The notes under the pieces: generated by a model
The model's input: only the letters and a program-made list of their open reading frames with translations
Told to the model about the DNA's origin: nothing
Databases searched by the model: none
Program-made: the position numbers and the translations under genes
Part shown: in pieces, positions 1 through 64,000 of the stretch
How the letters are laid out: each line of letters begins with the position of its first letter
Position numbering within the stretch: the stretch's first letter is position 1
From: Pontederia crassipes
Taxonomy: Eukaryota > Streptophyta > Magnoliopsida > Commelinales > Pontederiaceae
Direction of reading: 5' to 3'
DNA length: 64,000 nucleotides
NCBI GenBank assembly: GCA_030549335.1
Contig: CM060198.1
Coordinates: 50,962,995-51,026,994, forward strand

Positions 1-790
1 CAATCACCTTCCTCATCCACAATAAAAATAAAAATTACTTTAAATCATTTCACATCACTGAAATCAAACCTAAAGTGCATTTCCATTCGCTTACCAAGAA
101 TGATAGGAATCCGAAATCGACGAACCTAAAAGAAATTAACGATTAATTTTTATAAGGACTAAAATTTGATCCATTTCTCCTTCCTATGTGCACCTACCAA
201 AACGTGGTGATGAGCTCGATCGGAGCTCGCCGTCGAACTCGTAAGAAAAGTCGTCGGACATATCACCGGAAAACCTTCAATCTGGACTACCTTTACATAT
301 GATTGTGCCAAAAATCTTACAAAAGTTCAACCAATAATGAATGAATAGTCTCTTTAATCAATGGCCAACGCACCTTTGGAAGAATCGGCATGAATTGGAG
401 GTCGAACGGTGGCCAGTGGCGAAGTCCCTTTCTCGGTGTTGACCCTTCATTCTTCATTTCTAGTGCGCCGATCTTCGCCTAGCCCATGTCAAAATGCTTG
501 TGTCATCATCCTCTTTCCGTCGGTACCTCTCATTCGAAAAACGATGACCAAACGACAATAATGGGTCGCCGAAAGGGGAAGGCTGTTGTTGGTTGAGTGG
601 TCGTCGCGTGCGTGCGGTGGAAGGAGGAGGAGAGGAGAGGACTCTTCTCGCTCCACCTTTTTAGTCCACCATGGCATATTCTTTTCTTTTTTTTCTTGCA
701 AAAGACCATAATGTCGTAAACTTTTAAACTAATTCCCAACGCTGAAAAACCCGACCAAGGACCCAAATTGTCCAACGGGCCAAGACGGAT
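1..790 (-). other. Gene- or leader-like fragment of unknown origin (minus strand), repeated in each unit
   Basis: This stretch is less AT-rich than its surroundings. On the minus strand it shows splice-like borders: a 31-bp segment at 95-125 between an acceptor (CTTTTAG) and a donor (GTAAGC), and a further donor-like GTAGGTGCAC near 200. The minus-strand open frames at 489-775 are short and compositionally biased and I do not take them as genes. It may be a captured gene leader or the untranslated part of a retroelement. Counterparts start at 6624, 17590, 24207, 35171, 46147 and 57141. Confidence 0.3.
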
Positions 791-1050
791 TGGGCTGAAC
801 CGAATAGTTTGACCGGATAATATAAATTACTAAAAATAATAATGAGTTAAATAAATAAATTATTGAAAATATTGTTAACATATAATATCTTATTTAGAAA
901 AATAAAAAATATAATATAATGAAGTAATAAAATAATTCATATCAAATAATATAATAAAATAAGCATAGATTAAATCATCAATCAAATATTTTCTAAATAA
1001 GAAAATTTTTTTTAGGTAATTATAAATCAATAAAAATCATCGACGAAATT

Positions 1051-1072
1051 ATATATATATATATATATATAT
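1051..1072. repeat. AT microsatellite of the 5' flank (11 repeats in U1)
   Basis: Pure AT dinucleotide tract. Counterparts: 7673-7694 (11), 18640-18655 (8), 25256-25277 (11), 36221-36244 (12), 47196-47219 (12), 58188-58223 (18). It is length-variable between otherwise near-identical units. Confidence 0.9.
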
Positions 1073-1180
1073 GATTATAGAAGAAGTTGACATAATTTTA
1101 GGCATATATACATAATATACAATATGTCTAAAAAGTTTTAATAATTTTTTTATGTTTTAATTTTTTTACATTTTATGACT

Positions 1181-1196
1181 CGACCCGATCGGGTCG
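1181..1196. repeat. 16-bp perfect palindrome CGACCCGATCGGGTCG
   Basis: It lies in a GC-rich patch (1177-1265) inside AT-rich DNA; the patch ends ACTCGGTTTTACAACACTA. The reverse of that end resembles ends of hAT-type miniature elements, but no matching opposite end was found. It is present in each unit. Confidence 0.45.
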
Positions 1197-1568
1197 TCGA
1201 AATCCGCCGAGTCGGGATTGGGTTTGACACCATATGGGTGGATTTTGGACGACTCGGTTTTACAACACTATTAATTCCACCTTTTTCTTTCTTTTAAAAA
1301 GGTCATTACATCAGCGACTTGTTTACCATCGCAAGTAATGAAGAAGATGAAGCTCTTGAAAAATATTTTTTTGGTCGACCTGAATCTATGTAAGCTCTTC
1401 GGTGTTCGAGAATAACAACGTCCGATTAAGTATTTGGAGTCGAAAAGATAGAGCCGTAATATTATTACGGTGATGACTTCAATACTTGAACTCGAAACTA
1501 TTAACACCCGTCGTGGAATCAATTGAGCCAACCAACGTTTGGTTCTAGAAGAATCAAAATAAGTGATG

Positions 1569-2998: not shown

Positions 2999-3110
2999 CT
3001 GCGGTTCCCTTGCACCCTAACAATCAGTATCACAGCTAGCTATTGCAATTACCAAAAGCTCACATTCTACTCCTAGTTTTAGCATTCGATCAAGTCATCA
3101 TCGCCTAGAA

Positions 3111-5319
3111 ATGGCCCTCAAGGTGGTCTTTCTAGTACTCCCTATTCTCACGCTCTTCATGAACGGCGCCTGCGGCTCCAGGCGCAACAGGGACATGGAA
3201 GGCTCTTCTGCAAACATAGATTGGCATCGCACCGCTGCTGCATATCCCAGCTACTTTGATCTTGATGGAGAACATGGACACACCAACAGGTTCCTGGCCC
3301 AGGTATATGGCTCTTCACACAGAGTGGTGGTTAATGTTGATGACTACGGTGCTAAAGGAGATGGAAGTAGTGATGATTCACAGGTATGGATGGAGTGATT
3401 ACTAAATTGGAAATGTTATGAATTATGGTCCTTCAAGGCATTAAACTCTCGCACACATATAACGGACAAGTTGAACCATTTTCTTATACCTCAATGCTTC
3501 CTGCAAATATTAGGCATTTGCAAAGGCGTGGAAGAATGCTTGCGCTTCATCTACTTCGGCTACTCTTCTTGTCCCGCAGAACAAGAACTATCTCCTTAAA
3601 CCAGTGGCATTTTCTGGACCATGCAAGTCTGACATTTTAGTTATGGTAAGACAATATATCTTTCACATATTCTATACAGGCCCGCAGCGTTCCTATTTCA
3701 GCCACAGCAGTTAATATATGTGTGTGACGTGAGCATGTCTATGCATGGATATTAAACAGATCAAAGGCACTCTTGAAGCATCCTCCAACCGCGGATATTG
3801 GAACAGCGTTAATTCCAGATATTGGATTCGCTTTGACAGCATCGATCACCTCACCGTTCAAGGGGGTGGAAACTTCAATGGAAATGGAAAGATATGGTGG
3901 CAAAATTCTTGCAAGACTGATGCATCGCTAGTAAGCATTTATATATCTATTCAACCTGATGCGCTTCTTGACGTATTGTGGCATTGAACTCGACTGATGA
4001 TATCTTATCTTCTGATTTCAGCCCTGCAAGGATGCTCCAACGGTATGTCAATCCGTAATGTCTCTATTTTCTTTCTTCTGGAACATTAATTCTTAAAGCT
4101 TCCTAGAAAATAAAGTAATGCGTTTCTTCTTTGTTCCGAGAAGGCCTTGCACTTCAATAAATGCACTAACTTGGTGGTGGAGAACCTGACAATACAAAAT
4201 AGCCAGCAAATTCATGTTTCATTCGACGGCTGCAACAATGTGGTGGCTTCGGCCCTCTCCATCAGCGCACCTGAAACGAGCCCGAACACTGACGGAATTC
4301 ACGTTACAAATACGCAGAACATACAGATAAACAATTGTGTCATCAAAACTGGTAACAATAGCTTTGCCCTAAGTAATTGAACAAGATCACATGTCACTAA
4401 ATATGGGCTTCACACTCATTAATTTATATCTGTCGTAAAAACAAAATGTTAAGGCGATGACTGCATATCGATTGTTAGCGGATCAAGAAATGTGAAGGCA
4501 ACAAATACTGTTTGTGGGCCAGGACATGGGATCAGGTAAATCGTGCTCCTTATGTTGTTTCGTGCACTTACTCTCCTTGTTATCGAATTAACAATGGCCA
4601 TGACTTAAACAGTATTGGGAGCCTGGGAGCCCACAACTCCGCAGACTACGTCTCCGATGTGGTTGTGGACACAGCACAACTTATTGGCACCACGAATGGA
4701 GTCCGAATTAAGACCTGGCAGGTGAAAATTTTTGAACCCTGTATCAGTTTTGCCATTTCTTTTATATCTACGCGTGATTTTGATCGCAAGAATACTGATA
4801 CTACTTGTAATTTGCCAATTTCATGTAGAGTCCAGTGCAGTCTCCTCATTAATTTGATGTTTCCTATTTCCTTGTTTTTTTTTCCTTGAGTAGGGAGGCA
4901 GTGGATATGCAAAGAACATTACATTCAGCAATATTTCCATGCGTAATGTTCAGAATCCTATAATAATCGATCAAAATTATTGTGACTCGAAAACACCGTG
5001 CCAACAACAGGTAAAGTACCCATTGCACTCCCTTGCAATGTTCGTGCAAAGATGGAAATAATTTTATTAATCACTTCATGCACTTATATTGTTGTAGAAA
5101 TCAGCCGTCGCAGTGAAAGATATATCATACGAGAAAATCACAGGAACAAGCGCGTCAGTATTGACACTCAAACTCGACTGCAGCACCAATGTGCCGTGTC
5201 AGGGGATCGTATTGAATAAAATCAATCTCGTTCAAGCAAATGGAGGTGCAACAAAAAGTTTATGCAAAAATGCATACTGGGAAAAGGTTGGGACCGTTGT
5301 CCCCCCTCTTTCTGGTTGA
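3111..5319 (+). CDS. Polygalacturonase, copy 1 (GH28, 9 exons, in S unit U1)
   Basis: Exons by GT-AG sites and unbroken frame: 3111-3383, 3514-3645, 3760-3930, 4022-4042, 4144-4351, 4454-4535, 4613-4721, 4894-5010, 5098-5319 (1335 nt, 444 aa). The product should hydrolyse alpha-1,4 galacturonan (homogalacturonan) in the cell wall. Residues 1-22 are a hydrophobic signal peptide (MALKVVFLVLPILTLF...). Residues 23-70 look like a prosequence. The beta-helix domain begins near VNVDDYGAKGDG (74-85). GH28 motifs: NTD 247-249, GDDC 269-272, CGPGHGIS 289-296, RIKTWQ 327-332, giving catalytic D249, D270, D271, H293 and substrate-binding R327, K329. N-glycosylation sequons lie at 213, 340 and 345. The ATG has A at -3 and G at +4. 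A nine-exon layout with a prosequence fits fruit/abscission-type plant polygalacturonases (family knowledge); endo versus exo action is inferred only. Copy-specific residues shared with copy 3: Y148, T394. Confidence 0.93.
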
Positions 5320-5492: not shown

Positions 5493-5576
5493 ATAATTAT
5501 ATCATTATTTCGAAAAAAACTTCTACGTTGCTATCATCATGATCTCTTCATCTTTCTAATACAAGTGTGAAATACA

Positions 5577-6395
5577 AGTCTAGAAAGAGGAGAAGTGCAA
5601 GGGCAACAGCCAAGCGCCGCCGGAAACTCGATAGAGGATGCGCTTAAATTATGCTAGAGTTTTTGTTTTCTTTTTTTTCTATATTTTTATTCCAGATTTG
5701 ATGCTGTCATTCTCAAATTTATTTCTTCATTAGGGTCATCCTAATTGAACCCTATTTATGTATTAAATTCTTCGTGACATTAGTTTAATTTGAATATTTA
5801 ATAGCATTGCAATTTCATGTTTAATGCTTTCTTTTGATTCCGTAATTTGTGATTTGATTGCTATATGAGAAGAAGTGAATATTTTCATAATAGTTTCTAG
5901 GATTGATCTTATTTATTGCATGCCACAAATTAAAGAAATCAAAAGAGGCCTAATTTTTGTAGTTATTAAGGTGACTTGAGAAAGTCCTTAATATTAATAA
6001 AGATTTAATGCATCTTATGTTTAATTAGATAAGTTAAAAACCGAAAGGATTAATTCATTCTAATTGTTCTCAAGATACTAGTTAAAGCTTGAAACATTAG
6101 TTAATTAATTTTGGAAATTCACTTTATTATTGATTCAATTAATTCTAAGTTGAGAAAAATTCATTACATTTAGTGATGATAATTAGGTGCTCTAATCATC
6201 AAATTATTATTTCTCCAGGTGATCATTTCCTTTATTTTTATTATTTTCTACACCTGAAATCATACATTTTCTTAATCTCTCAATTAACAAAGTTAAAATA
6301 AAATTTAAGTTATTAACCGTCCTCATGGGAATGATAACTCTACTCATTCACTTTATTACTTGAGCGACTAGTGTACTTGCTAGCGTTTGCTATCA
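5577..6395 (+). mobile_element. 5'-truncated LTR remnant in U1
   Basis: Only the last 819 bp of the LTR are present. U3, the TATA box and roughly the first 25 bases after the expected transcription start are missing. The left edge is the junction 5576/5577, where the 3' flank of the gene joins the LTR. Without its promoter part it should not start transcription like the full LTRs. Confidence 0.65.
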
Positions 6396-9300
6396 ATTCT
6401 ACATGCACTCGGAATCTCCAATAAGCAACAAACTGTCGCCCTTTGATTAACAACCCCTACAAGTGAAATTTAAATCAAACTTTAAAATATTTTCTAATTA
6501 AACTCTTTACCACATCATAAAGATTATTTTAAGCTATCACATCATTCTCACCACCACAGCCATAGCAACCGCTCTCAAAATCAAATTGCAACCTCCCCCC
6601 GCGCCAAAATGTCGAACAATCTCCAATCACCTTCCTCATCCACAATAAAAATAAAAATTACTTTAAATCATTTCACATCACTGAAATCAAACCTAAAGTG
6701 CATTTCCATTCGCTTACCAAGAATGATAGGAATCCGAAATCGACGAACCTAAAAGAAATTAACGATTAATTTTTATAAGGACTAAAATTTGATCCATTTC
6801 TCCTTCCTATGTGCACCTACCAAAACGTGGTGATGAGCTCGATCGGAGCTCCCCGTCGAACTCGTAAGAAAAGTCGTCGGACATATCACCGGAAAACCTT
6901 CAATCTGGACTACCTTTACATATGATTGTGCCAAAAATCTTACAAAAGTTCAACCAATAATGAATGAATAGTCTCTTTAATCAATGGCCAACGCACCTTT
7001 GGAAGAATCGGCATGAATTGGAGGTCGAACGGTGGCCAGCGGCGAAGTCCCTTTCTCGGTGTTGACCCTTCATTCTTCATTTCTAGTGCGCCGATCTTCG
7101 CCTAGCCCATGTCAAAATGCTTGTGTCATCATCCTCTTTCCGTCGGTACCTCTCATTCGAAAAACGATGACCAAACGACAATAATGGGTCGCCGAAAGGG
7201 GAAGGCTGTTGTTGGTTGAGTGGTCGTCGCGTGCGTGCGGTGGAAGGAGGAGGAGAGGAGAGGACTCTTCTCGCTCCACCTTTTTAGTCCACCATGGCAT
7301 ATTCTTTTCTTTTTTTTCTTGCAAAAGACCATAATGTCGTAAACTTTTAAACTAATTCCCAACGCTGAAAAACCCGACCAAGGACCCAAATTGTCCAACG
7401 GGCCAAGACGGATTGGGCTGAACCGAATAGTTTGACCGGATAATATAAATTACTAAAAATAATAATGAGTTAAATAAATAAATTATTGAAAATATTGTTA
7501 ACATATAATATCTTATTTAGAAAAATAAAAAATATAATATAATGAAGTAATAAAATAATTCATATCAAATAATATAATAAAATAAGCATAGATTAAATCA
7601 TCAATCAAATATTTTCTAAATAAGAAAATATTTTTAGGTAATTATAAATCAATAAAAATCATCGACGAAATTATATATATATATATATATATATGATTAT
7701 AGAAGAAGTTGACATAATTTTAGGCATATATACATAATATACAATATGTCTAAAAAGTTTTAATAATTTTTTTATGTTTTAATTTTTTTACATTTTATGA
7801 CTCGACCCGATCGGGTCGTCGAAATCCGCCGAGTCGGGATTGGGTTTGACACCATATGGGTGGATTTTGGACGACTCGGTTTTACAACACTATTAATTCC
7901 ACCTTTTTCTTTCTTTTAAAAAGGTCATTACATCAGCGACTTGTTTACCATCGCAAGTAATGAAGAAGATGAAGCTCTTGAAAAATATTTTTTTGGTCGA
8001 CCTGAATCTATGTAAGCTCTTCGGTGTTCGAGAATAACAACGTCCGATTAAGTATTTGGAGTCGAAAAGATAGAGCCGTAATATTATTACGGTGATGACT
8101 TCAATACTTGAACTCGAAACTATTAACACCCGTCGTGGAATCAATTGAGCCAACCAACGTTTGGTTCTAGAAGAATCAAAATAAGTGGTGATGGGTACTG
8201 AAGAATACTGCAGTACCCATGCACGGCAGTAGACTAGATGGCTCGAACCAATTTGGTGTACATATCATGTTTGGCAAATGCTTGCATGCACGCAGCCCAG
8301 TATCATCAAATGAAGTACACACGTGTATATCAACACATCAAAGGCTGGATCATCCGATATATCCAAAAGGAAAGAGAATGCACGTTGCATGGTTTAATTA
8401 ATTAGAAGCACGTGCTCATGCATTCATGCATCGTATCTAGTTGATTGGGTGCACATATGGCATATCGTTAATTAAATCGCAAATGTAACATATGTCTTTT
8501 GTGGATTTATTTCCACAGTTTACTCCATCATTCATGCATTCTTGATACTCTATTAATTTGTTCGCCGTCAGGTGTGTTCGACCGAAGACAAAGCTACTTC
8601 TTTCACAAAAAGAAAATAAACAATACACTCAATAACTTTGACTTTTGAAAGTTTAGGAGGCGGCTCCACCATGACAGGTTTCTGATCCTGGCTAACTGCC
8701 GAGTCAAACACGCAAGGTGCCTCCTTTTGCATGGATCGAACTGTGTAAAACCGTTGATCGAATAATAGTTAAACCGTTGGGGGCTAATTTTCCAATATTC
8801 AAATTCGAATATGTTAGAATTTATCTCCGCATTCTGAACCCCCGGTCATTAGCTAATTAATTTAGTTCGAGGGATCAGAAAGGTGGGAGCATAAAATTTA
8901 CACGACAATAATGTGACAAAATTGAGAAACACTTTATTAACGTCCGCACAATCTTCTGAGTTTGAAATAATACAATGTACAAGCTAACTCGCAAAGATAA
9001 GAACAATCTTTCACCAAATTTCTGACATACGAAGAATTTTGTGATGAGCTAGAGCTATTACTCATATTTTGACTAATTCCATTCTATGAACAGCACTGTC
9101 ACGCGCGGAAGGAATAGAATTCACGTCTATAAATTTGTTTTTCTTCGGGGTGGTAGCAGCATTCTAGACTATATGTAAATGTGAGATGATAGAAGAAAAA
9201 ACGTCAAACCCAGTTACCATTTTTGGAAGTGCAGTGTGTTTTCGATGGGCGCCCTAAAACAATTTTTACGTCCAGACATGAGCAGTACGATCAGATATCT

Positions 9301-9611
9301 GCGACATATGGAATAATCCTAGATTACATACTGCGTGTGGAGTGTGGGCCCTTACGTTATTAGCAAGTTAGATAGATAGAGATAAGAGATGGGAGATCAG
9401 AGAGAGAGAGAGAGACGTACGGCCGCCACTTTAACGAGAGGACGCACATGTCTAGATTCACCGCGACATGCTAGCTAGATGCAAATGCACGCATGCATGC
9501 AACCTTACAGATGAACGGCATGGCATGCCTAACTGGATGTTCCTGTAAACTTCTCTTCCTCTCTTTCTCCCTCATCTCCAGGCAGCAAGCAACCTCCTCA
9601 TCGTATTCGTT

Positions 9612-9620
9612 TATATATAG
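9612..9620 (+). promoter_or_regulatory. TATA box, gene copy 2
   Basis: Same sequence and distance to the ATG as in copy 1. Confidence 0.7.
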
Positions 9621-9732
9621 CTGCGGTTCCCTTGCACCCTAACAATCAGTATCACAGCTAGCTATTGCAATTACCAAAAGCTCACATTCTACTCCTAGTT
9701 TTAGCATTCGATCAAGTCATCATCGCCTAGAA

Positions 9733-11942
9733 ATGGCCCTCAAGGTGGTCTTTCTAGTACTCCCTATTCTCACGCTCTTCATGAACGGCGCCTGCGGCTC
9801 CAGGCGCAACAGGGACATGGAAGGCTCTTCTGCAAACATAGATTGGCATCGCACCGCTGCTGCATATCCCAGCTACTTTGATCTTGATGGAGAACATGGA
9901 CACACCAACAGGTTCCTGGCCCAGGTATATGGCTCTTCACACAGAGTGGTGGTTAATGTTGATGACTACGGTGCTAAAGGAGATGGAAGTAGTGATGATT
10001 CACAGGTATGGATGGAGTGATTACTAAATTGGAAATGTTATGAATTATGGTCCTTCAAGGCATTAAACTCTCGCACACATATAACGGACAAGTTGAACCA
10101 TTTTCTTATACCTCAATGCTTCCTGCAAATATTAGGCATTTGCAAAGGCGTGGAAGAATGCTTGCGCTTCATCTACTTCGGCTACTCTTCTTGTCCCGCA
10201 GAACAAGAACTATCTCCTTAAACCAGTGGCATTTTCTGGACCATGCAAGTCTGACATTTTAGTTATGGTAAGACAATATATCTTTCACATATTCTATACA
10301 GGCCCGCAGCGTTCCTATTTCAGCCACAGCAGTTAATATATGTGTGTGACGTGAGCATGTCTATGCATGGATATTAAACAGATCAAAGGCACTCTTGAAG
10401 CATCCTCCAACCGCGGAGATTGGAACAGCGTTAATTCCAGATATTGGATTCGCTTTGACAGCATCGATCACCTCACCGTTCAAGGGGGTGGAAACTTCAA
10501 TGGAAATGGAAAGATATGGTGGCAAAATTCTTGCAAGACTGATGCATCGCTAGTAAGCATTTATATATCTATTCAACCTGATGCGCTTCTTGACGTATTG
10601 TGGCATTGAACTCGACTGATGATATCTTATCTTCTGATTTCAGCCCTGCAAGGATGCTCCAACGGTATGTCAATCCGTAATGTCTCTATTTTCTTTCTTC
10701 TGGAACATTAATTCTTAAAGCTTCCTAGAAAATAAAGTAATGCGTTTCTTCTTTGTTCCGAGAAGGCCTTGCACTTCAATAAATGCACTAACTTGGTGGT
10801 GGAGAACCTGACAATACAAAATAGCCAGCAAATTCATGTTTCATTCGACGGCTGCAACAATGTGGTGGCTTCGGCCCTCTCCATCAGCGCACCTGAAACG
10901 AGCCCGAACACTGACGGAATTCACGTTACAAATACGCAGAACATACAGATAAACAATTGTGTCATCAAAACTGGTAACAATAGCTTTGCCCTAAGTAATT
11001 GAACAAGATCACATGTCACTAAATATGGGCTTCACACTCATTAATTTATATCTGTCGTAAAAACAAAATGTTAAGGCGATGACTGCATATCGATTGTTAG
11101 CGGATCAAGAAATGTGAAGGCAACAAATACTGTTTGTGGGCCAGGACATGGGATCAGGTAAATCGTGCTCCTTATGTTGTTTCGTGCACTTACTCTCCTT
11201 GTTATCGAATTAACAATGGCCATGACTTAAACAGTATTGGGAGCCTGGGAGCCCACAACTCCGCAGACTACGTCTCCGATGTGGTTGTGGACACAGCACA
11301 ACTTATTGGCACCACGAATGGAGTCCGAATTAAGACCTGGCAGGTGAAAATTTTTGAACCCTGTATCAGTTTTGCCATTCCTTTTATATCTACGCGTGAT
11401 TTTGATCGCAAGAATACTGATACTACTTGTAATTTGCCAATTTCATGTAGAGTCCAGTGCAGTCTCCTCATTAATTTGATGTTTCCTATTTCCTTGTTTT
11501 TTTTTTCCTTGAGTAGGGAGGCAGTGGATATGCAAAGAACATTACATTCAGCAATATTTCCATGCGTAATGTTCAGAATCCTATAATAATCGATCAAAAT
11601 TATTGTGACTCGAAAACACCGTGCCAACAACAGGTAAAGTACCCATTGCACTCCCTTGCAATGTTCGTGCAAAGATGGAAATAATTTTATTAATCACTTC
11701 ATGCACTTATATTGTTGTAGAAATCAGCCGTCGCAGTGAAAGATATATCATACGAGAAAATCACAGGAACAAGCGCGTCAGTATTGGCACTCAAACTCGA
11801 CTGCAGCACCAATGTGCCGTGTCAGGGGATCGTATTGAATAAAATCAATCTCGTTCAAGCAAATGGAGGTGCAACAAAAAGTTTATGCAAAAATGCATAC
11901 TGGGAAAAGGTTGGGACCGTTGTCCCCCCTCTTTCTGGTTGA
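9733..11942 (+). CDS. Polygalacturonase, copy 2 (GH28, 9 exons, in L unit U2)
   Basis: Exons: 9733-10005, 10136-10267, 10382-10552, 10644-10664, 10766-10973, 11076-11157, 11235-11343, 11517-11633, 11721-11942. All donors and acceptors and the stop match copy 1, so it reads as an intact 444-aa secreted GH28 enzyme with the NTD, GDD, GHG and RIK motifs kept. It differs from copy 1 at two residues, D148 (Y in copy 1) and A394 (T in copy 1), and is the same as copy 4 at every variable position. The T-run in front of exon 8 is one base longer than in copy 1. No LTR with a TATA box lies between copy 1 and this gene, because unit U1 carries the truncated LTR. Confidence 0.93.
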
Positions 11943-12109
11943 AGGCATGCGTGAAGGACTGACTATGAAATGCTAAACAATTATTGAGATATGTCTATAC
12001 TTGATGTAATTACGCATGTCATACAAGTATTCCAATTGCCATCTTGTAAAAAATTAGTGTGCATAAATTTGTAACAAAATTATATTTGTACATGTATGTT
12101 GAATTTATA

Positions 12110-12115
12110 AATAAA
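12110..12115 (+). terminator. Candidate poly(A) signal, gene copy 2
   Basis: AATAAA at the same distance from the stop. The bases after it read TATGATT rather than TATCATT of copies 1 and 3. Confidence 0.5.
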
Positions 12116-13638
12116 ATAATTATATGATTATTTCGAAAAAAAACTTCTACGTTGCTATCATCATGATCTCTTCATCTTTCTAATACAAGTGTGAAATACA
12201 CATAACCCAATAAAAATATTATTAAACATAGAAAGGTGCTAAGTGTGGAAGAAACAAATGGTGGTACTATTTTCTTCACACAGATGGAGAGTAATCTTCA
12301 AGAATCGCCCTTGCTATATACGATATCATTTCCATTAAATTAGCTTAATAAGTAGGCTGCTAACGGCATTGCACTCTAAAATACTACTTAAGAATATGTT
12401 ATACGCACCAATTCCTTTAATTACATCCACTATAAGGGCAACGTGGTATGGATATCCAGAAAATGTTAAGTACATATAATTCAATAAAAAAATGAAATTT
12501 ATTAGATATCTTGGACATGTCTTACAGCATATCAAGTGTCCTAATGATAAAAACATTCTTTTTTTTTAATGTATTCTTAGAAAAATATCAGCCTGAGTCG
12601 ATTCATTATCCGACTCTCTTTTCTGAAATTAAAATAAATATACAAAAAATAAGAGAAAAACATTAGTGGATGTGGATACATAATCACCGGTGTGTAGACA
12701 ACTCCTTGATCGGATCATCAACTTGTCTTCACCTTTTCGCACTTGAATTTATATTCTTGAGTGGACAATTTCGATTATAACTCGTTACATATACATTCAC
12801 TTATCCGCTTGGACCTTTTTCCTATGTCCTTATTTATTTGCCATAAAGAATTGAATGCTTTTCACAGTTGTTTTGTGTGCTTTGCATCCCACCAATACTT
12901 AATTCTCACTTTTTTCAACTAAAGAATTAAGTTTTCTAAATTTAAAATTATATACAAATTTAAAATCTTAAATCACACCTTCTTCATGGCATGACGAATC
13001 TTTCCATATAAGCCTTGAAATACCTTAGTACGAATGACTACAACCAGCTTCAACTTAAAAAAGAAATAAATGACTATCTTATATTATTGGTATGCTTTAT
13101 ACTAACGTCTCGATGAAAAAGCATCAATAACAACTTCGAGAAATTGTGCCTCAACGTTAAGAATATCCTATGATGGAGTACTCTCTATGGAAGGAGCATC
13201 CAATACAGATGGTTCATCCACACTATGAATTTCATGACATCTAAAATTATGTGGTCTTTCACTTTCTGTTCTATGAGGGGCATTTTCTTTCCCCTCACAT
13301 TTTTTCTCTTACGAAAATGAAACATCTGTGTATATGAAGTACTTCTATAACAAAACTACTTAAATAAAAATAATATTTGCATCACAATGTAATATTTTTT
13401 AATAATAATATAAACTCACCTATGTCTTTTGTTGCATCTTCTAAACCGAATGATATAAACATAACTTAGAGCTAGTTCCTAATATTATGAGGCTCTCACG
13501 AAAACGAAACATTAATACTAAAACTTTCAATCAAAATTCTATACCTACAAATGCTATTATGAATGAAAAGGCACTCACAAGAACTCAAGAGACCGAATAT
13601 GAATAATATCCTTGTCTCCATGAAAATAATTGTAAATG

Positions 13639-13656
13639 ATATATATATATATATAT
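13639..13656. repeat. AT microsatellite of the L segment (9 repeats in U2)
   Basis: Counterparts: 31219-31236 (9), 42189-42216 (14), 53163-53210 (24). Confidence 0.9.
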
Positions 13657-14059
13657 ACACTTGTCCAATATGTCTATGAAAATTAGAGCAGTTATTTTTC
13701 TGCCTCCTTGGAAGGTAGCTGAAGGCCAGACGATTCAAAGACATCGTGTGGACTCTGATCAGTATAACCTCCATTAATATTCCCCTAAATGCACCAAAAC
13801 ATCAGGTGAATATTATGATCATATATAAATTTAACATTTTAACATAGAGTGATAATTCCAAATTTTGTCACACCCAGGTCACAAAGGTTGACTTGAGGCA
13901 TTCAACAAATAAAAAAAATTCTTCTACTTCTAGATGTGGTGTCTATTCTTTGCACTTTTGAAAAATTATAATATCACCATGCCCATTGCAACGACAATGT
14001 ACATCATATTCTGATATCTATAATCTACATTTTTTCTATGATGGTCAGATAGAAGCCTT

Positions 14060-14290
14060 CATTAGCTATGTTTGGTGGTGGTTCTTCCTCTCCAAATTTA
14101 GCCCAATATCAATAATGGATTTTTATACAAATGAACTTTGATGGGGCTTGTAATCTGAAATTTTGTACTTTCACATTTAAGACCTTGGCATCTAATAGTT
14201 TCTTCACATGAGTATTGTGTTGATTGAATTTAACAATTTGTATATGAATTCCTGTGTAAGTCCTATGCGATTGGAATTAGTTTGTCAATG
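14060..14290 (-). pseudogene. Decayed CACTA (En/Spm) Tnp2 N-terminal domain, U2
   Basis: Read on the minus strand with frameshifts and stops, it gives NSNRIGLTQEF near 14250-14285, then TIRCQGLKCESTKF and KVHLYKNP, then YWAKFGEEEPPPNI near 14070-14105. The order and spacing match the transposase-associated domain at the N-terminus of plant CACTA Tnp2 proteins (strand EF, zinc-like RCxxxKC, VHLY, W..GE). At least three frame changes mean it is dead. Further along the minus strand (about 12571-12625) STQADIF could be part of another transposase frame, which is much less sure. Confidence 0.55.
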
Positions 14291-14635
14291 TTCTGAGGAA
14301 AGGTAAATTTTTGCAATAATATATATTCTTTAATTACATCTTATAGCTGAAAAGCTATAAATATAATCAGATAATATACAATATAATTATTGGTATTAAC
14401 AAAAGAATAGAGAACATTTATAATATAAATCCCAAACATGTGAAATGAGCCTCTAACAAAATTTATAGGTCACAAAAAATTAAGTTTAAATTAAACATTA
14501 ATAATATAAAATATCATCAATTAAAATAATTCCACATTTATAAATTGCATAAATTAATAAAAAATTAACTATAAAATTTTTATCAATTAATTAACTATAA
14601 TAAATTAATAGTAATTTATTAAATAAATTTGAACG

Positions 14636-15440
14636 ATGGCAACTCACGAGAGGGTCGTTAAATGGCCAAATCTGACTATTTATGGGCCAAATCTCGCAGT
14701 TCGTGGCTGGATACGACCAATAAAGGGGGCATATGCGCACCCTCGCGAGAGCCTCATCACCGTTGTTGTAAAAAAGGGTGCGCCGCCATCACTAGAGTGG
14801 AGAGAAATGGGGGAAAAGAGTTATTGTCGAACCTCATTGCCGGAGGAGAAGAATTCATCGCCAGGGTTCAATTCATTAGGTTGCACGATGTCATTGGTAG
14901 AGTTCAGGGTCATGGGTGCCGCAGGTGATTGGAGATAGGGGTAACCGAAGTTGATCGCGTGAGCAACGCTATCGTTGGATCCGAAAACCATCAGTTTTTA
15001 GTTTTCTATATGACAACTTTGTGTTTTTAGTCCAAGATCTTATTCTTAGTTAGGTCTTTACACATCCAATAAAAAATTATAAAATTACATATTTTAGTCC
15101 ATAAACTTACACACTTTAGATCCTAGTGTGTGCATGTGCACGATCGCGTGTGCCTTATATTATAAAAGAATAAAGGATGATACTTGAAGCAATATTAAAG
15201 CTTTCTTTAAGGGAGAAAAATATTAAAGCGTACGTAAGAAAAGATGGAATTGTTGTTAAGAAAAAGGGCTGCTGGTCATATGACTCAAATGCATGTTTTG
15301 GCTCCCGATCACGCGAAGGCAAGGCTGAATTAAATGGATAGTAGAGCAATGAAGGAAGAGTGGCTCCCAGGAGAAGGTTGTCCAACAGATCCAACCAAGG
15401 CAGGGCAATGTTCGAGCGTGGGCTCTAGGGACAACAGAGC
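14636..15440. other. GC-richer island in the L segment without a recognised gene
   Basis: It stands out from the AT-rich L segment. Two overlapping frames of 88 and 100 codons on the + strand stay open in all four complete L units (also 32216-32518, 43196-43498, 54190-54492), but they overlap each other, match no family I know, and their conservation follows from the recent duplication. It is most likely a fragment of a larger lost element. Confidence 0.3.
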
Positions 15441-16041
15441 ATTTATTGTGATGACTAGAAGATTTTAAAAATTCATAGCATAAACATCACAAGTCATATT
15501 GTGGCACACATATGAGACATATTAATATGTATGAACAAGTATGAGAAAACTAATACGAATTATGTTCCACATCGAGTGGAACCATGTACAGTAATTCACA
15601 TCATTTGAGATAAGTTTTCTCATCTCGGATTTATCGAGTGCCAAACTACCGCCTCATCCGAATACAATCAATTATGTGTAAACCCAACCCATCTTATCCA
15701 TTACATCGATTTAGATCTTAATCATTATTGTAATTCTTATTACCATGATATTGTCAAAACAATCATCTTATCTTTTCTTAACATCAAAAGTAGATTATTA
15801 TACATCATCGTGATAACTTGATTAAAACTAATAGTTCTTTCATATAAAAATAGTTGATATAAATTAATTTAAGCTATCTTAACAACTACTCTATTAATTG
15901 AGTCATTAACATTATAAAAATGAGATCCGTAATTCACTATTAATAACAACTTAGTGTACTTATACAAGTCATATATGGGTTAGCTAAAATATTTATCGAG
16001 GAAAATGAAAGTCTTGTCGACTAGCTGCAGCCCAATGGAAT

Positions 16042-17360
16042 TGATGCACGAAAAATCATGCATTAGTTTAGGTCATTCGATTAGTATTTTAGAATGTTTT
16101 TATGTTTAGAAAAGTGGAGTTTTGATTTGTTTTCATATAATTTTCTTTAGATTTGATTTCTACCTAAGTCTGGAAATTATTCATGGCGGAATATGAAGAA
16201 ACGTCGAAATCAAGTAAGAAAAGGCCTAAAACAACTCAGAAGACTTTCACGGCCATGACAGTTCTTTTTATGGCCGTGACAGGAAGATATTGCACACTGT
16301 TACGACCGTCATAAGGACATTTTCTACATAAATTTGGCTAAGTATTTTTCAGCCTTGATAGCTTTTTATCACGGACGGGTGACAAAGCCTTTCACAGCTG
16401 TAACGGCGGTCGGTTAAGTCATTTTAAAGCCATTTTTATGCATTTTTGGATGGAATTTTGGTTTCTTTCTTTTGAAGACGAGAAAACCTATAAAAGGAGG
16501 CGGAAGAGGGTATTAGAAAGCATCTCTGGAGCATAGTTTTAAAGTCTAGAAAGAGGAGAAGTGCAAGGGCAACAGCCAAGCGCCGCCGGAAACTCGATAG
16601 AGGATGCGCTTAAATTATGCTAGAGTTTTTGTTTTCTTTTTTCCTATATTTTTATTCCAGATTTGATGCTGTCATTCTCAAATTTATTTCCTCATTAGGG
16701 TCATCCTAATTGAACCCTATTTATGTATTAAATTCTTTGTGACATTAGTTTAATTTGAATATTTAATAGCATTGCAATTTCATGTTTAATGCTTTCTTTT
16801 GATTCCGTAATTTGTGATTTGATTGCTATATGAGAAGAAGTGAATATTTTCATAATAGTTTCTAGGATTGATCTTATTTATTGCATGCCACAAATTAAAG
16901 AAATCAAAAGAGGCCTAATTTTTGTAGTTATTAAGGTGACTTGAGAAAGTCCTTAATATTAATAAAGATTTAATGCATCTTATGTTTAATTAGATAAGTT
17001 AAAAACCGAAAGGATTAATTCATTCTAATTGTTCTCAAGATACTAGTTAAAGCTTGAAACATTAGTTAATTAATTTTGGAAATTCACTTTATTATTGATT
17101 CAATTAATTCTAAGTTGAGAAAAATTCATTACATTTAGTGATGATAATTAGGTGCTCGAATCATCAAATTATTATTTCTTCAGGTGATCATTTCCTTTAT
17201 TTTTATTATTTTCTACACCTGAAATCATACATTTTCTTAATCTCTCAATTAACAAAGTTAAAATAAAATTTAAGTTATTAACCGTCCTCATGGGAATGAT
17301 AACTCTACTCATTCACTTTATTACTTGAGCGACTAGTGTACTTGCTAGCGTTTGCTATCA
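16042..17360 (+). mobile_element. Solo-LTR-like sequence (Ty3/gypsy, Tat/Athila-like) in U2
   Basis: The sequence begins TGATGCACG and ends GCTATCA, in the TG...CA form of LTRs. It has repeated CACGGCC/GGCCGTGAC motifs in its first half (16249-16310), as often seen in LTRs of plant Tat-type elements. A TATA box (CCTATAAAAGG, TATA at 16489) marks a U3/R boundary near 16518, and the end reads like a U5 (CTTGAGCGACTAGTGTACTT). I see no gag-pol, primer-binding site or polypurine tract, so it is a solo or fragmentary LTR. No 5-bp target duplication is evident at these ends (GGAAT versus ATTCT), so the exact borders are uncertain. Confidence 0.6.
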
Positions 17361-20300: not shown

Positions 20301-20572
20301 GAGTGTGGGCCCTTACGTTATTAGCAAGTTAGATAGATAGAGATAAGAGATGGGAGATCAGAGAGAGAGAGAGAGACGTACGGCCGCCACTTTAACGAGA
20401 GGACGCACATGTCTAGATTCACCGCGACATGCTAGCTAGATGCAAATGCACGCATGCATGCAACCTTACAGATGAACGGCATGGCATGCCTAACTGGATG
20501 TTCCTGTAAACTTCTCTTCCTCTCTTTCTCCCTCATCTCCAGGCAGCAAGCAACCTCCTCATCGTATTCGTT

Positions 20573-20581
20573 TATATATAG
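20573..20581 (+). promoter_or_regulatory. TATA box, gene copy 3
   Basis: Identical to copy 1. Confidence 0.7.
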
Positions 20582-20693
20582 CTGCGGTTCCCTTGCACCC
20601 TAACAATCAGTATCACAGCTAGCTATTGCAATTACCAAAAGCTCACATTCTACTCCTAGTTTTAGCATTCGATCAAGTCATCATCGCCTAGAA

Positions 20694-22902: not shown

Positions 22903-23069
22903 AGGCATGCGTGAAGGACTGACTATGAAATGCTAAACAATTATTGAGATATGTCTATACTTGATGTAATTACGCATGTCATACAAGTATTCCAATTGCC
23001 ATCTTGTAAAAAATTAGTGTGCATAAATTTGTAACAAAATTATATTTGTACATGTATGTTGAATTTATA

Positions 23070-23075
23070 AATAAA
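23070..23075 (+). terminator. Candidate poly(A) signal, gene copy 3
   Basis: AATAAA, identical context to copy 1. Confidence 0.5.
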
Positions 23076-23159
23076 ATAATTATATCATTATTTCGAAAAA
23101 AACTTCTACGTTGCTATCATCATGATCTCTTCATCTTTCTAATACAAGTGTGAAATACA

Positions 23160-42186: not shown

Positions 42187-42220
<34 letters not shown>

Positions 42221-49256: not shown

Positions 49257-51466
49257 ATGGCCCTCAAGGTGGTCTTTCTAGTACTCCCTATTCTCACGCT
49301 CTTCATGAACGGCGCCTGCGGCTCCAGGCGCAACAGGGACATGGAAGGCTCTTCTGCAAACATAGATTGGCATCGCACCGCTGCTGCATATCCCAGCTAC
49401 TTTGATCTTGATGGAGAACATGGACACACCAACAGGTTCCTGGCCCAGGTATATGGCTCTTCACACAGAGTGGTGGTTAATGTTGATGACTACGGTGCTA
49501 AAGGAGATGGAAGTAGTGATGATTCACAGGTATGGATGGAGTGATTACTAAATTGGAAATGTTATGAATTATGGTCCTTCAAGGCATTAAACTCTCGCAC
49601 ACATATAACGGACAAGTTGAACCATTTTCTTATACCTCAATGCTTCCTGCAAATATTAGGCATTTGCAAAGGCGTGGAAGAATGCTTGCGCTTCATCTAC
49701 TTCGGCTACTCTTCTTGTCCCGCAGAACAAGAACTATCTCCTTAAACCAGTGGCATTTTCTGGACCATGCAAGTCTGACATTTTAGTTATGGTAAGACAA
49801 TATATCTTTCACATATTCTATACAGGCCCGCAGCGTTCCTATTTCAGCCACAGCAGTTAATATATGTGTGTGACGTGAGCATGTCTATGCATGGATATTA
49901 AACAGATCAAAGGCACTCTTGAAGCATCCTCCAACCGCGGAGATTGGAACAGCGTTAATTCCAGATATTGGATTCGCTTTGACAGCATCGATCACCTCAC
50001 CGTTCAAGGGGGTGGAAACTTCAATGGAAATGGAAAGATATGGTGGCAAAATTCTTGCAAGACTGATGCATCGCTAGTAAGCATTTATATATCTATTCAA
50101 CCTGATGCGCTTCTTGACGTATTGTGGCATTGAACTCGACTGATGATATCTTATCTTCTGATTTCAGCCCTGCAAGGATGCTCCAACGGTATGTCAATCC
50201 GTAATGTCTCTATTTTCTTTCTTCTGGAACATTAATTCTTAAAGCTTCCTAGAAAATAAAGTAATGCGTTTCTTCTTTGTTCCGAGAAGGCCTTGCACTT
50301 CAATAAATGCACTAACTTGGTGGTGGAGAACCTGACAATACAAAATAGCCAGCAAATTCATGTTTCATTCGACGGCTGCAACAATGTGGTGGCTTCGGCC
50401 CTCTCCATCAGCGCACCTGAAACGAGCCCGAACACTGACGGAATTCACGTTACAAATACGCAGAACATACAGATAAACAATTGTGTCATCAAAACTGGTA
50501 ACAATAGCTTTGCCCTAAGTAATTGAACAAGATCACATGTCACTAAATATGGGCTTCACACTCATTAATTTATATCTGTCGTAAAAACAAAATGTTAAGG
50601 CGATGACTGCATATCGATTGTTAGCGGATCAAGAAATGTGAAGGCAACAAATACTGTTTGTGGGCCAGGACATGGGATCAGGTAAATCGTGCTCCTTATG
50701 TTGTTTCGTGCACTTACTCTCCTTGTTATCGAATTAACAATTGCCATGACTTAAACAGTATTGGGAGCCTGGGAGCCCACAACTCCGCAGACTACGTCTC
50801 CGATGTGGTTGTGGACACAGCACAACTTATTGGCACCACGAATGGAGTCCGAATTAAGACCTGGCAGGTGAAAATTTTTGAACCCTGTATCAGTTTTGCC
50901 ATTTCTTTTATATCTACGCGTGATTTTGATCGCAAGAATACTGATACTACTTGTAATTTGCCAATTTCATGTAGAGTCCAGTGCAGTCTCCTCATTAATT
51001 TGATGTTTCCTATTTCCTTGTTTTTTTTTTCCTTGAGTAGGGAGGCAGTGGATATGCAAAGAACATTACATTCAGCAATATTTCCATGCGTAATGTTCAG
51101 AATCCTATAATAATCGATCAAAATTATTGTGACTCGAAAACACCGTGCCAACAACAGGTAAAGTACCCGTTGCACTCACTTGCAATGTTCGTGCAAAGAT
51201 GGAAATAATTTTATTAATCACTTCATGCACTTATATTGTTGTAGAAATCAGCCGTCGCAGTGAAAGATATATCATACGAGAAAATCACAGGAACAAGCGC
51301 GTCAGTAGTGGCACTCAAACTCGACTGCAGCACCAATGTGCCATGTCAGGGGATCGTATTGAATAACATCAATCTCGTTCAAGCAAATGGAGGTGCAACA
51401 AAAAGTTTATGCAAAAATGCATACTGGGAAAAGGTTGGGACCGTTGTCCCCCCTCCTTCTGGTTGA
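49257..51466 (+). CDS. Polygalacturonase, copy 6 (GH28, 9 exons, in L unit U6)
   Basis: Exons: 49257-49529, 49660-49791, 49906-50076, 50168-50188, 50290-50497, 50600-50681, 50759-50867, 51041-51157, 51245-51466. Intact 444-aa protein of the V393/A394/N412/P442 subtype, with A376. Intron 6 has a private base change near 50742 that leaves the splice sites alone. The promoter lacks one T near 48766 compared with the other copies, well upstream of the TATA box. An LTR with its TATA box at 45049 lies about 4.2 kb upstream on the same strand. Confidence 0.92.
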
Positions 51467-53210: not shown

Positions 53211-53214
<4 letters not shown>

Positions 53215-58223: not shown

Positions 58224-58226
<3 letters not shown>

Positions 58227-60149: not shown

Positions 60150-60261
60150 CTGCGGTTCCCTTGCACCCTAACAATCAGTATCACAGCTAGCTATTGCAAT
60201 TACCAAAAGCTCACATTCTACTCCTAGTTTTAGCATTCGATCAAGTCATCATCGCCTAGAA

Positions 60262-62470
60262 ATGGCCCTCAAGGTGGTCTTTCTAGTACTCCCTATTCTC
60301 ACGCTCTTCATGAACGGCGCCTGCGGCTCCAGGCGCAACAGGGACATGGAAGGCTCTTCTGCAAACATAGATTGGCATCGCACCGCTGCTGCATATCCCA
60401 GCTACTTTGATCTTGATGGAGAACATGGACACACCAACAGGTTCCTGGCCCAGGTATATGGCTCTTCACACAGAGTGGTGGTTAATGTTGATGACTACGG
60501 TGCTAAAGGAGATGGAAGTAGTGATGATTCACAGGTATGGATGGAGTGATTACTAAATTGGAAATGTTATGAATTATGGTCCTTCAAGGCATTAAACTCT
60601 CGCACACATATAACGGACAAGTTGAACCATTTTCTTATACCTCAATGCTTCCTGCAAATATTAGGCATTTGCAAAGGCGTGGAAGAATGCTTGCGCTTCA
60701 TCTACTTCGGCTACTCTTCTTGTCCCGCAGAACAAGAACTATCTCCTTAAACCAGTGGCATTTTCTGGACCATGCAAGTCTGACATTTTAGTTATGGTAA
60801 GACAATATATCTTTCACATATTCTATACAGGCCCGCAGCGTTCCTATTTCAGCCACAGCAGTTAATATATGTGTGTGACGTGAGCATGTCTATGCATGGA
60901 TATTAAACAGATCAAAGGCACTCTTGAAGCATCCTCCAACCGCGGAGATTGGAACAGCGTTAATTCCAGATATTGGATTCGCTTTGACAGCATCGATCAC
61001 CTCACCGTTCAAGGGGGTGGAAACTTCAATGGAAATGGAAAGATATGGTGGCAAAATTCTTGCAAGACTGATGCATCGCTAGTAAGCATTTATATATCTA
61101 TTCAACCTGATGCGCTTCTTGACGTATTGTGGCATTGAACTCGACTGATGATATCTTATCTTCTGATTTCAGCCCTGCAAGGATGCTCCAACGGTATGTC
61201 AATCCGTAATGTCTCTATTTTCTTTCTTCTGGAACATTAATTCTTAAAGCTTCCTAGAAAATAAAGTAATGCGTTTCTTCTTTGTTCCGAGAAGGCCTTG
61301 CACTTCAATAAATGCACTAACTTGGTGGTGGAGAACCTGACAATACAAAATAGCCAGCAAATTCATGTTTCATTCGACGGCTGCAACAATGTGGTGGCTT
61401 CGGCCCTCTCCATCAGCGCACCTGAAACGAGCCCGAACACTGACGGAATTCACGTTACAAATACGCAGAACATACAGATAAACAATTGTGTCATCAAAAC
61501 TGGTAACAATAGCTTTGCCCTAAGTAATTGAACAAGATCACATGTCACTAAATATGGGCTTCACACTCATTAATTTATATCTGTCGTAAAAACAAAATGT
61601 TAAGGCGATGACTGCATATCGATTGTTAGCGGATCAAGAAATGTGAAGGCAACAAATACTGTTTGTGGGCCAGGACATGGGATCAGGTAAATCGTGCTCC
61701 TTATGTTGTTTCGTGCACTTACTCTCCTTGTTATCGAATTAACAATGGCCATGACTTAAACAGTATTGGGAGCCTGGGAGCCCACAACTCCGCAGACTAC
61801 GTCTCCGATGTGGTTGTGGACACAGCACAACTTATTGGCACCACGAATGGAGTCCGAATTAAGACCTGGCAGGTGAAAATTTTTGAACCCTGTATCAGTT
61901 TTGCCATTTCTTTTATATCTACGCGTGATTTTGATCGCAAGAATACTGATACTACTTGTAATTTGCCAATTTCATGTAGAGTCCAGTGCAGTCTCCTCAT
62001 TAATTTGATGTTTCCTATTTCCTTGTTTTTTTTTCCTTGAGTAGGGAGGCAGTGGATATGCAAAGAACATTACATTCAGCAATATTTCCATGCGTAATGT
62101 TCAGAATCCTATAATAATCGATCAAAATTATTGTGACTCGAAAACACCGTGCCAACAACAGGTAAAGTACCCGTTGCACTCACTTGCAATGTTCGTGCAA
62201 AGATGGAAATAATTTTATTAATCACTTCATGCACTTATATTGTTGTAGAAATCAGCCGTCGCAGTGAAAGATATATCATACGAGAAAATCACAGGAACAA
62301 GCGCGTCAGTAGTGGCACTCAAACTCGACTGCAGCACCAATGTGCCATGTCAGGGGATCGTATTGAATAACATCAATCTCGTTCAAGCAAATGGAGGTGC
62401 AACAAAAAGTTTATGCAAAAATGCATACTGGGAAAAGGTTGGGACCGTTGTCCCCCCTCCTTCTGGTTGA
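60262..62470 (+). CDS. Polygalacturonase, copy 7 (GH28, 9 exons, in L-type unit U7)
   Basis: Exons: 60262-60534, 60665-60796, 60911-61081, 61173-61193, 61295-61502, 61605-61686, 61764-61872, 62045-62161, 62249-62470. Intact, with the same predicted protein as copy 6 (D148, A376, V393, A394, N412, P442). The T-run before exon 8 has the shorter length seen in copies 1 and 3 rather than the longer one in copies 2, 4, 5 and 6, and several 3' flank bases match copies 2 and 4 instead of 5 and 6. The gene is therefore a mosaic of array lineages. Confidence 0.92.
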
Positions 62471-62637
62471 AGGCATGCGTGAAGGACTGACTATGAAATG
62501 CTAAACAATTACTGAGATATGTCTATACTTGATGTAATTAAGCATGTCATACAAGTATTCCAATTGCCATCTTGTAAAAAATTAGTGTGCATAAATTTGT
62601 AACAAAATTATATTTGTACATGTATGTTGAATTTATA

Positions 62638-62643
62638 AATAAA
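62638..62643 (+). terminator. Candidate poly(A) signal, gene copy 7
   Basis: AATAAA, identical context to copy 5. Confidence 0.5.
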
Positions 62644-62727
62644 ATAATTATATGATTATTTCGAAAAAAACTTCTACGTTGCTATCATCATGATCTCTTC
62701 ATCTTTCTAATACAAGTGTGAAATACA

Positions 62728-64000
62728 CATAACCCAATAAAAATATTATTAAACATAGAAAGGTGCTAAGTATGGAAGAAACAAATGGTGGTACTATTTT
62801 CTTCACACAGATGGAGAGTAATCTTCAAGAATCGCCCTTGCTATATACGATATCATTTCCATTAAATTAGCTTAATAAGTAGGCTGCTAACGGCATTGCA
62901 CTCTAAAATACTACTTAAGAATATGTTATACGCACCAATTCCTTTAATTACATCCACTATAAGGGCAACGTGGTATGGATATCCAGAAAATGTTAAGTAC
63001 ATATAATTCAATAAAAAAATGAAATTTATTAGATATCTTGGACATGTCTTACAGCATATCAAGTGTCCTAATGATAAAAACATTCTTTTTTTTAATGTAT
63101 TCTTAGAAAAATATCAGCCTGAGTCGATTCATTATCCGACTCTCTTTTCTGAAATTAAAATAAATATACAAAAAATAAGAGAAAAACATTAGTGGATGTG
63201 GATACATAATCACCGGTGTGTAGACAACTCCTTGATCGGATCATCAACTTGTCTTCACCTTTTCGCACTTGAATTTATATTCTTGAGTGGACAATTTCGA
63301 TTATAACTCGTTACATATACATTCACTTATCCGCTTGGACCTTTTTCCTATGTCCTTATTTATTTGCCATAAAGAATTGAATGCTTTTCACAGTTGTTTT
63401 GTGTGCTTTGCATCCCACCAATACTTAATTCTCACTTTTTTCAACTAAAGAATTAAGTTTTCTAAATTTAAAATTATATACAAATTTAAAATCTTAAATC
63501 ACACCTTCTTCATGGCATGACGAATCTTTCCATATAAGCCTTGAATTACCTTAGTACGAATGACTACAACCAGCTTCAACTTAAAAAAGAAATAAATGAC
63601 TATCTTATATTATTGGTATGCTTTATACTAACGTCTCGATGAAAAAGCATCAATAACAACTTCGAGAAATTGTGCCTCAACGTTAAGAATATCCTATGAT
63701 GGAGTACTCTCTATGGAAGGAGCATCCAATACAGATGGTTCATCCACACTATGAATTTCATGACATCTAAAATTATGTGGTCTTTCACTTTCTGTTCTAT
63801 GAGGGGCCTTTTCTTTCCCCTCACATTTTTTCTCTTACGAAAATGAAACATCTGTGTATATGAAGTACTTCTATAACAAAACTACTTAAATAAAAATAAT
63901 ATTTGCATCACAATGTAATATTTTTTAATAATAATATAAACTCACCTATGTCTTTTGTTGCATCTTCTAAACCGAATGATATAAACATAACTTAGAGCTA
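62728..64000. repeat. L-specific segment of U7 (partial)
   Basis: Starts at the same point as in the other L units and runs off the window. It has a private A at about 62771 (AAGTATGG). In part it matches U2/U4 (CACCTTTTC, ATTGGTATG) and in part U5/U6 (TTGAATTACC). Confidence 0.83.

Follow-up and report, generated by a model that had tools for sequence, protein, structure and literature searches.

A GH28 polygalacturonase (PG) gene has been tandemly amplified on two chromosomes, C15 and C16, of a 1.13-Gb plant genome, and we consider it very likely that both inherited a tandem pair of this gene and then repeated different units of it, with exchange of sequence among the C16 units. The window, the whole 64,000-nucleotide stretch of DNA analysed here, lies in the middle of the C16 array, which continues past both window ends.

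Intact polygalacturonase genes in the window

Seven PG genes lie head to tail on the + strand, at 3111..5319 (copy 1), 9733..11942 (copy 2), 20694..22902 (copy 3), 27314..29523 (copy 4), 38283..40492 (copy 5), 49257..51466 (copy 6) and 60262..62470 (copy 7), corresponding to copies 6 to 12 of the C16 array, respectively. Each has nine exons, a 1335-nt coding sequence for 444 amino acids, GT-AG borders at 8/8 introns and one terminal stop; in copy 2, exons 1–5 are at 9733-10005, 10136-10267, 10382-10552, 10644-10664 and 10766-10973, and exons 6–9 at 11076-11157, 11235-11343, 11517-11633 and 11721-11942. Thus, the array of seven intact genes described in the first-pass annotation was borne out, all seven retaining every splice site, the four motifs and the stop. 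Its six variable residues were also recovered exactly (148, 376, 393, 394, 412 and 442; Y148/T394 in copies 1 and 3, V376 in copy 5), and comparison of all 15 C16 copies gave 11. The only silent change among the window copies is at codon 404, and the promoter-proximal 300 bp (9401..9700, + strand) are 100% identical across all seven.

The gene product matched Pfam PF00295 (Glyco_hydro_28) with E 1.6e-104 and 350 bits versus a curated cut-off of 22.9, indicating GH28 membership. It carries NTDG at 247, GDDC at 269, CGPGHG at 289 and RIK at 327, in which NTD, GDD, GHG and RIK are the catalytic motifs of GH28 polygalacturonases. In the PDB, where plant-type PGs are few, the best match was Arabidopsis ADPG2 (7b8b, E 6e-123, residues 72-441), scoring 414 bits versus 304 for the next chain. 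Judged by eye from its hydrophobic start, the protein is probably secreted. The Clade B PG motif is given as FGAKGDG in the accessible part of one source (PMC6102391), where the array gene reads YGAKGDG.

Two unit lengths and a deletion-derived short form

The spacings between successive window copies are 6622, 10961, 6620, 10969, 10974 and 11005, uneven because a 4.34-kb segment, referred to as X, follows copies 2, 4, 5, 6 and 7 but not copies 1 and 3. A uniform simple array was therefore rejected in favour of two unit lengths (6.62 and 10.97 kb). The complete long unit of 10,966 bp (5576..16541, + strand) served as the reference, unit coordinate 1 being window position 5576, and contains segment X of the X1 type at 12201..16541; the complete short unit of 6,617 bp (16542..23158, + strand) is without it. 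A solo LTR-like insertion of about 1.33 kb (16042..17375) begins with TG and has GGAAT on both sides, with three extra bases before the right-hand GGAAT. It occupies 13/13 long C16 spacers, and has dispersed relatives at 80–86% elsewhere in the genome.

At the short-unit junction (5576), the start of X is fused with a 1-nt overlap to a point within the LTR, removing 4.34 kb, and the second junction at 23159 is identical. This position within the LTR led us to reject an inserted transposon as the main account of segment X. Since long units have the LTR uninterrupted, the short form arose by deletion, and short units are long units that have lost X in this way. None of the four ORFs tested in segment X matched Pfam, and of 10 non-PG ORFs checked for a second gene in the unit, none exceeded the Pfam cut-off (two weak matches, E 0.037 and 0.054). 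An Rfam scan of the whole window gave 0 matches, and querying the PLSDB plasmids with the region of exon 1 returned nothing, as expected.

Copy census and exchange among C16 units

C16 carries at least 15 full copies at 98–100% plus one 5'-truncated copy, in agreement with the earlier expectation that the true number exceeds the seven in the window. At the syntenic site, C15 carries at least 22 copies at 92–94%, and beside each array stands one diverged copy per chromosome at 84–85%. These counts are lower bounds, with 40 of 63 candidates scored, and come from a single assembly. The C16 map is contiguous from the left flank through to the right flank; its left-edge copy matches at 94.5% over unit 3520-7310, and its right-edge copy is without unit 3890-5307. 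Mean gene divergence was 0.36% among the 14 interior C16 copies versus 0.67% among the 8 interior C15 copies read.

The 14 units of the C16 interior vary at 117/7749 spacer sites, 4/1000 sites of the upstream 1 kb, 9/874 intron sites and 8/1335 exon sites (Fisher tests: exon vs spacer p = 0.007, intron vs spacer p = 0.30, exon vs intron p = 0.32). Intergenic DNA, which had been described as similar to the same degree as coding DNA, is in fact about 2.5 times as variable as exons. Within the unit, variation is lowest in the promoter and 5' gene (8/2500 sites, unit 3001-5500). Blocks of two units are duplicated in two separate places, u06-u07/u08-u09 and u11-u12/u13-u14, with 0.06–0.10% divergence, and 206/861 pairs of ungapped informative sites failed the four-gamete test. 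Together with the differently built array on C15, these observations give good support to the proposal that the locus is prone to unequal exchange, and we infer that copy number turns over at so recombination-prone a locus. C16 units exchange sequence one or two units at a time, through unequal crossing over and/or conversion; this keeps the interior near-identical while edge copies diverge or decay.

Because C16 units exchange sequence, their identity dates the last homogenisation and not the birth of the array. The claim that the array grew very recently is thus not shown: exchange resets identity, and the ancestral duplication predates the divergence of C15 and C16. In general, 'recent' dates taken from identity mislead where units recombine.

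Near-identical blocks are also the classic failure mode of assembly, and u06-u07/u08-u09, at such low divergence, could include assembly duplication. However, that the array as a whole is a false duplication of one or few true copies is highly improbable, as many units can be told apart by point variants, lengths of TA runs and deletions, both edges pass into other sequence, the edge copies are diverged, and a second array with its own structure lies on another contig.

Probable separate amplification on C15 and C16

Genes on C15 and C16 differ with dS of about 0.08 and with divergence of about 7% for intron and 3% for exon sequence, and the contigs measure 49.3 and 64.7 Mb. The dS, intron divergence and contig sizes led us to reject ordinary alleles; homeologs or strongly diverged parental genomes are far likelier. 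In the gene tree, genes cluster by chromosome (C16 100/99; C15 94/92, with 3 of the 22 C15 genes included), and copies within an array are closer than those at the partner locus (0.36% inside the C16 interior versus the above intron and exon values).

Spacers, unlike genes, do not cluster by chromosome. The tree of X (unit 8174-9018) is split with 100/99 into one group of the C15 edge spacer and the C16 array, and another of two C15 interior spacers and a C16 right-flank fragment; constraining the C15 spacers together was rejected (AU p = 0.00045, for groups named after the divergences were seen). The right-flank fragment is called X2 because of this split, and its distance from C15 interior X (10.7–11.4%) is greater than that between X1 homeologs (7.2%). 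For a shorter stretch of X (unit 6630-7100), the tree was unresolved, and over that stretch the C16 right-edge copy is nearest to the C16 array (4.4%).

Our reading of C15 covered 9 of the 22 genes, the edge spacer, two spacers of 8.99-kb units (one whole) and a portion of one 10.3-kb unit. The 8.99-kb units of C15 carry an X2 spacer and for the most part alternate with 10.3-kb units. The C15 junction, joining unit 9018 to 1032 in one direct reading, differs from that of C16, and 13 C15 matches to X stop at X 2393-2396, the same junction point. The C15 edge spacer has an empty LTR site with a single GGAAT, seen in this spacer alone, since the 8.99-kb C15 unit that was read lacks the LTR site itself.

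The two arrays were very probably amplified separately, in parallel. The sequence supports an ancestral locus with gene-X1-gene-X2 in tandem and, in addition, a more distant sister gene. Once the chromosomes had diverged, C16 would have repeated gene plus X1, with the LTR inserted in its spacer, whereas C15 would have repeated the 8.99-kb X2-spacer units in their mostly alternating arrangement with 10.3-kb units. Alternatively, one array was already high-copy before the C15/C16 split and was homogenised separately on each side afterwards, as might be suggested by many copies at a syntenic site on both chromosomes and by an ancestral locus that already had at least two copies. We regard this as unlikely, since the units differ in spacer type, LTR, junction and length; these differences and the LTR-free X1 at the C15 edge would require wholesale replacement of the older array.

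Constraint and dosage

Homeolog dN/dS of 0.18–0.24 clearly indicates long-term constraint on the PG gene. Each copy in the array has its own upstream region, and higher copy number probably yields more enzyme. One tentative proposal is that both arrays were driven, and are maintained, by selection on the amount of enzyme or for a part in reproduction or defence, with parallel amplification as its signature. The constraint between homeologs, amplification of the same gene in two separately built arrays, intactness of all 15 full C16 genes and low variability of the promoter and 5' gene are consistent with this. On the other hand, 2 of the 9 C15 genes read are damaged, and the low-variability trough takes in introns and may be an effect of conversion or linkage. 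Stop-free frames would be expected at this divergence even without selection (P ~0.75, point changes only), and intact frames do not point to dosage selection. Furthermore, coding changes within the C16 array were 7 replacement to 1 silent, no stronger a sign of constraint than the neutral expectation of ~5.9:2.1, with only 8 changes, whereas fixed C16 differences from two C15 copies were 16 replacement to 22 silent (Fisher p = 0.047, counts being small). Such surplus replacement variation suggests relaxed constraint per copy. A fuller version, by analogy with maize Ga1, in which the locus amplified twice independently on both polyploid partners and extra pectin-cutting was favoured, for example where pollen competes or organs separate, is rather doubtful.

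Comparison with known systems

No description of paired PG arrays of this kind was found among the open-access matches listed, in their titles and the start of their abstracts. One gene amplified at partner loci in differing units offers a natural replicate for separating mutational bias from selection in array growth, and diagnostic spacer, LTR and exon variants allow expression and copy number to be assigned per array. ADPG2, an abscission/dehiscence polygalacturonase, has its catalytic motifs in common with the array gene; it is a single gene in Arabidopsis, whereas the array gene, its function predicted from sequence, is multi-copy. Concerted arrays of the rDNA type have a homogenised interior, diverged edges, block duplications and recombinant units, and the C16 array resembles them in all four; unlike them, it is protein-coding, with a single-gene unit and modest copy number.

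Tandem GH28 duplicates are also known from maize, where Clade D on chromosome 6 has 10 tandem PG genes and PG tandem pairs show Ka/Ks < 1 and Ks 0.017-0.608 (PMC8509529), and from peach, with PpendoPGM/PpendoPGF (PMC6102391); as far as the accessible parts of these sources go, those clusters are smaller and mostly more diverged than the C15 and C16 arrays, with their at least 22 and at least 15 copies and mean gene divergence of 0.67% and 0.36% among the interior copies compared. Maize Ga1 is likewise a tandem amplification of a pectin-modifying enzyme with many intact copies and pseudogenes, the accessible part of the source reporting 29 Ga1 copies, 18 with complete CDS, apparently in teosinte (PMC12205860). 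As described there, Ga1 belongs to the PME family and has a known reproductive role, whereas the GH28 arrays occupy two partner chromosomes in different units and are known from sequence alone.

Intact polygalacturonase copies on C16

The gene model was built by hand on the second of the seven polygalacturonase (PG) copies in the window, all on the plus strand, and moved to the others by alignment, giving 9 exons, a CDS of 1335 nt, 444 amino acids and one terminal stop. As the first-pass annotation had claimed, all seven copies are intact (7/7 with nine exons, GT-AG at 8/8 introns and one terminal stop), the four GH28 motifs NTDG, GDDC, CGPGHG and RIK are all in place, and exactly six residues differ (148, 376, 393, 394, 412 and 442), all outside these motifs, besides one silent codon. 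The protein matches Pfam Glyco_hydro_28 (1.6e-104), and its closest solved structure is ADPG2 (6e-123).

The assembly (1.13 Gb, 43 contigs) was searched at the DNA level with the PG gene, and 40 of 63 candidates were scored, so that all counts are lower bounds: at least 15 full-length copies (98–100%) and at least one 5′-truncated copy on the contig of the window (C16), at least 22 copies (92–94%) on a second contig (C15), and at least one diverged copy on each (84–85%). The true copy number on C16 is thus higher than the seven in the window, as had been supposed. C16 was examined without gaps over 50.85–51.10 Mb, a stretch that includes the window at C16:50962995-51026994. Its left-edge copy matches the 10,966-bp reference unit (unit position 1 = window 5576) at 94.5% over unit 3520–7310, with the gene part at 98%, and its right-edge copy (C16:51066888-51069154) is without unit 3890–5307, i.e. 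the proximal promoter and first exons. Downstream of the latter, part of the 4.34-kb spacer segment X matches the array at ~81–82%, and another X piece lies ~17 kb past it, at C16:51086583. In both diverged flanking copies, on C15 and C16, the reading frame is open and the introns are GT-AG. Several of the 20 longest ORFs listed from the C16 flanks (C16:50850001-50910800 and 51070000-51100000) resemble LTR-retrotransposon or transposase parts by eye, and no other ordinary genes were recognised among them. Elsewhere, rbcL-like plastid fragments with degraded-looking changes lie on small contigs (C20:2674020-2674946, C21:1339974-1340900).

Unit structure and exchange

The copy-to-copy distance in the window is either ~6.62 or ~10.97 kb, a point that the first-pass annotation missed: X follows window copies 2, 4, 5, 6 and 7, and short units are without it. 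The short-unit junction sits within a dispersed 1.33-kb repeat, found outside the array in at least 26 places at 80–86%, 24 of these 26 sharing nearly the same ends (40 of 3206 candidates scored). Since it starts with TG and has GGAAT on both sides (with 3 extra bases ahead of the right one), it looks like a solo LTR. It is present in 13/13 long C16 spacers. It runs unbroken through the long units, so the short units arose from them by deletion. Pure TA/AT runs occur at one unit site (window 36220-36244, 47195-47219 and 58188-58223; 12.5, 12.5 and 18 repeats) and at another (42189-42217 and 53163-53211; 14.5 and 24.5 repeats), and their unequal lengths could serve as copy markers.

The mean divergence of 14 interior C16 units was 0.35%, and the closest pairs (units 6/8, 7/9, 11/13 and 12/14, at 0.06–0.10%) point to two separate two-unit block duplications. 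In addition, ungapped informative sites formed 861 pairs, of which 206 showed all four combinations in the four-gamete test. Both results uphold the earlier suggestion of a locus prone to unequal exchange, and identity therefore tracks the time since homogenisation rather than the age of the array, so that very recent growth does not follow from it.

A second array on a partner chromosome

The C15 array (C15:8321353-8540135) carries its at least 22 copies in 8.99- and 10.3-kb units, mostly alternating (of 21 gene spacings, 8.98–8.99 kb ×11 and 10.31–10.37 kb ×8; the remaining two, at the array ends, are 10.19 and 24.6 kb). Sequence from its left flank is present in one partly examined 10.3-kb unit. 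Of the 22 genes, 9 were examined: six show no defect, in a seventh the first intron is GC-AG (not counted as damaged), an eighth has its frame stopped at codon 383, and the ninth has lost 1 nt near the end. The last two (C15:8345965-8348416 and C15:8365260-8367710) show that parts of the C15 array are decaying, whereas 15/15 full C16 copies are intact. The junction also differs from C16, running from unit 9018 to 1032 in one direct reading, and 13 C15 matches to X end at the same point (X 2393–2396). The LTR site is wholly absent from the one 8.99-kb unit examined in full, and the C15 edge spacer has an LTR-free site with a single GGAAT.

Between C15 and C16, dS of the PG genes was 0.077–0.096, introns differed by ~7% and the left flanks matched at ~89–91%; the two are partner loci of diverged chromosomes, and most likely homeologous. 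Over unit 8174–9018, the C15 edge-copy spacer and the C16 array spacers differ by 7.2%, and two C15 interior spacers examined are 11–13% from both. In the unrooted tree of this region, a well-supported split (100/99) joins these two with the X fragment of the C16 right flank, despite its distance of 10.5–11.4% from every other X sequence, and topologies with the C15 spacers forced together were rejected (AU p = 0.00045, groups chosen after the distances were seen). From the distances and the split, we infer that gene-X1-gene-X2, with X1 and X2 the spacer types repeated in C16 and C15, respectively, would already have stood at one locus before the two chromosomes split. Thereafter gene+X1 would have been repeated on C16, with the LTR in the spacer, and C15 would have gained units with its other junction. 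Unlike the spacers, genes group by chromosome (C16 100/99; C15 94/92, 3 of 22 C15 genes included), as expected from exchange inside each array. The X segment adjoining the gene (unit 6630–7100) gave no resolved tree; there the C16 right-edge copy lies nearest the C16 array (at 4.4%), a result that exchange would produce.

Constraint and dosage

For homeologous PG genes dN/dS was 0.18–0.24, and for the flanking pair 0.30; long-term constraint on the gene is clear. Variable sites in C16 numbered 8/1335 in exons, 9/874 in introns, 4/1000 in the upstream 1 kb and 117/7749 in the spacer (exon vs spacer p = 0.007; intron vs spacer p = 0.30; exon vs intron p = 0.32), contradicting the claim that intergenic DNA is as similar as coding DNA. 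Separately, variability is low over unit 3001–5500 (8/2500 sites; e.g. window 8576-11075), covering the promoter and the 5′ gene part including introns; exons 1–6 with introns have 3/1425 variable sites and exons 7–9 with introns 12/707. Either a conversion tract or selection may have caused this trough.

Replacement to silent variation in C16 was 7:1, against a neutral expectation of ~5.9:2.1. The same ratio for differences fixed between C16 and a pair of C15 copies was 16:22 (p = 0.047 against 7:1, few counts), and for the variation among 8 interior C15 genes examined it was 27:6. On our reading, constraint would be relaxed for single copies yet retained for the ensemble. The probability of no stop among the 8 C16 coding changes is ~0.75 (point changes only); intact frames are therefore what youth or homogenisation alone would yield, and the dosage selection suggested earlier is possible but unproved.

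Tandem PG genes are known from a cluster on maize chromosome 6 (PMC8509529) and the peach PpendoPG pair (PMC6102391), and at maize Ga1 a different pectin enzyme forms large tandem arrays (PMC12205860). Set against these systems, the arrays here stand out by their size and uniformity, and by having been built up separately on both partner chromosomes.
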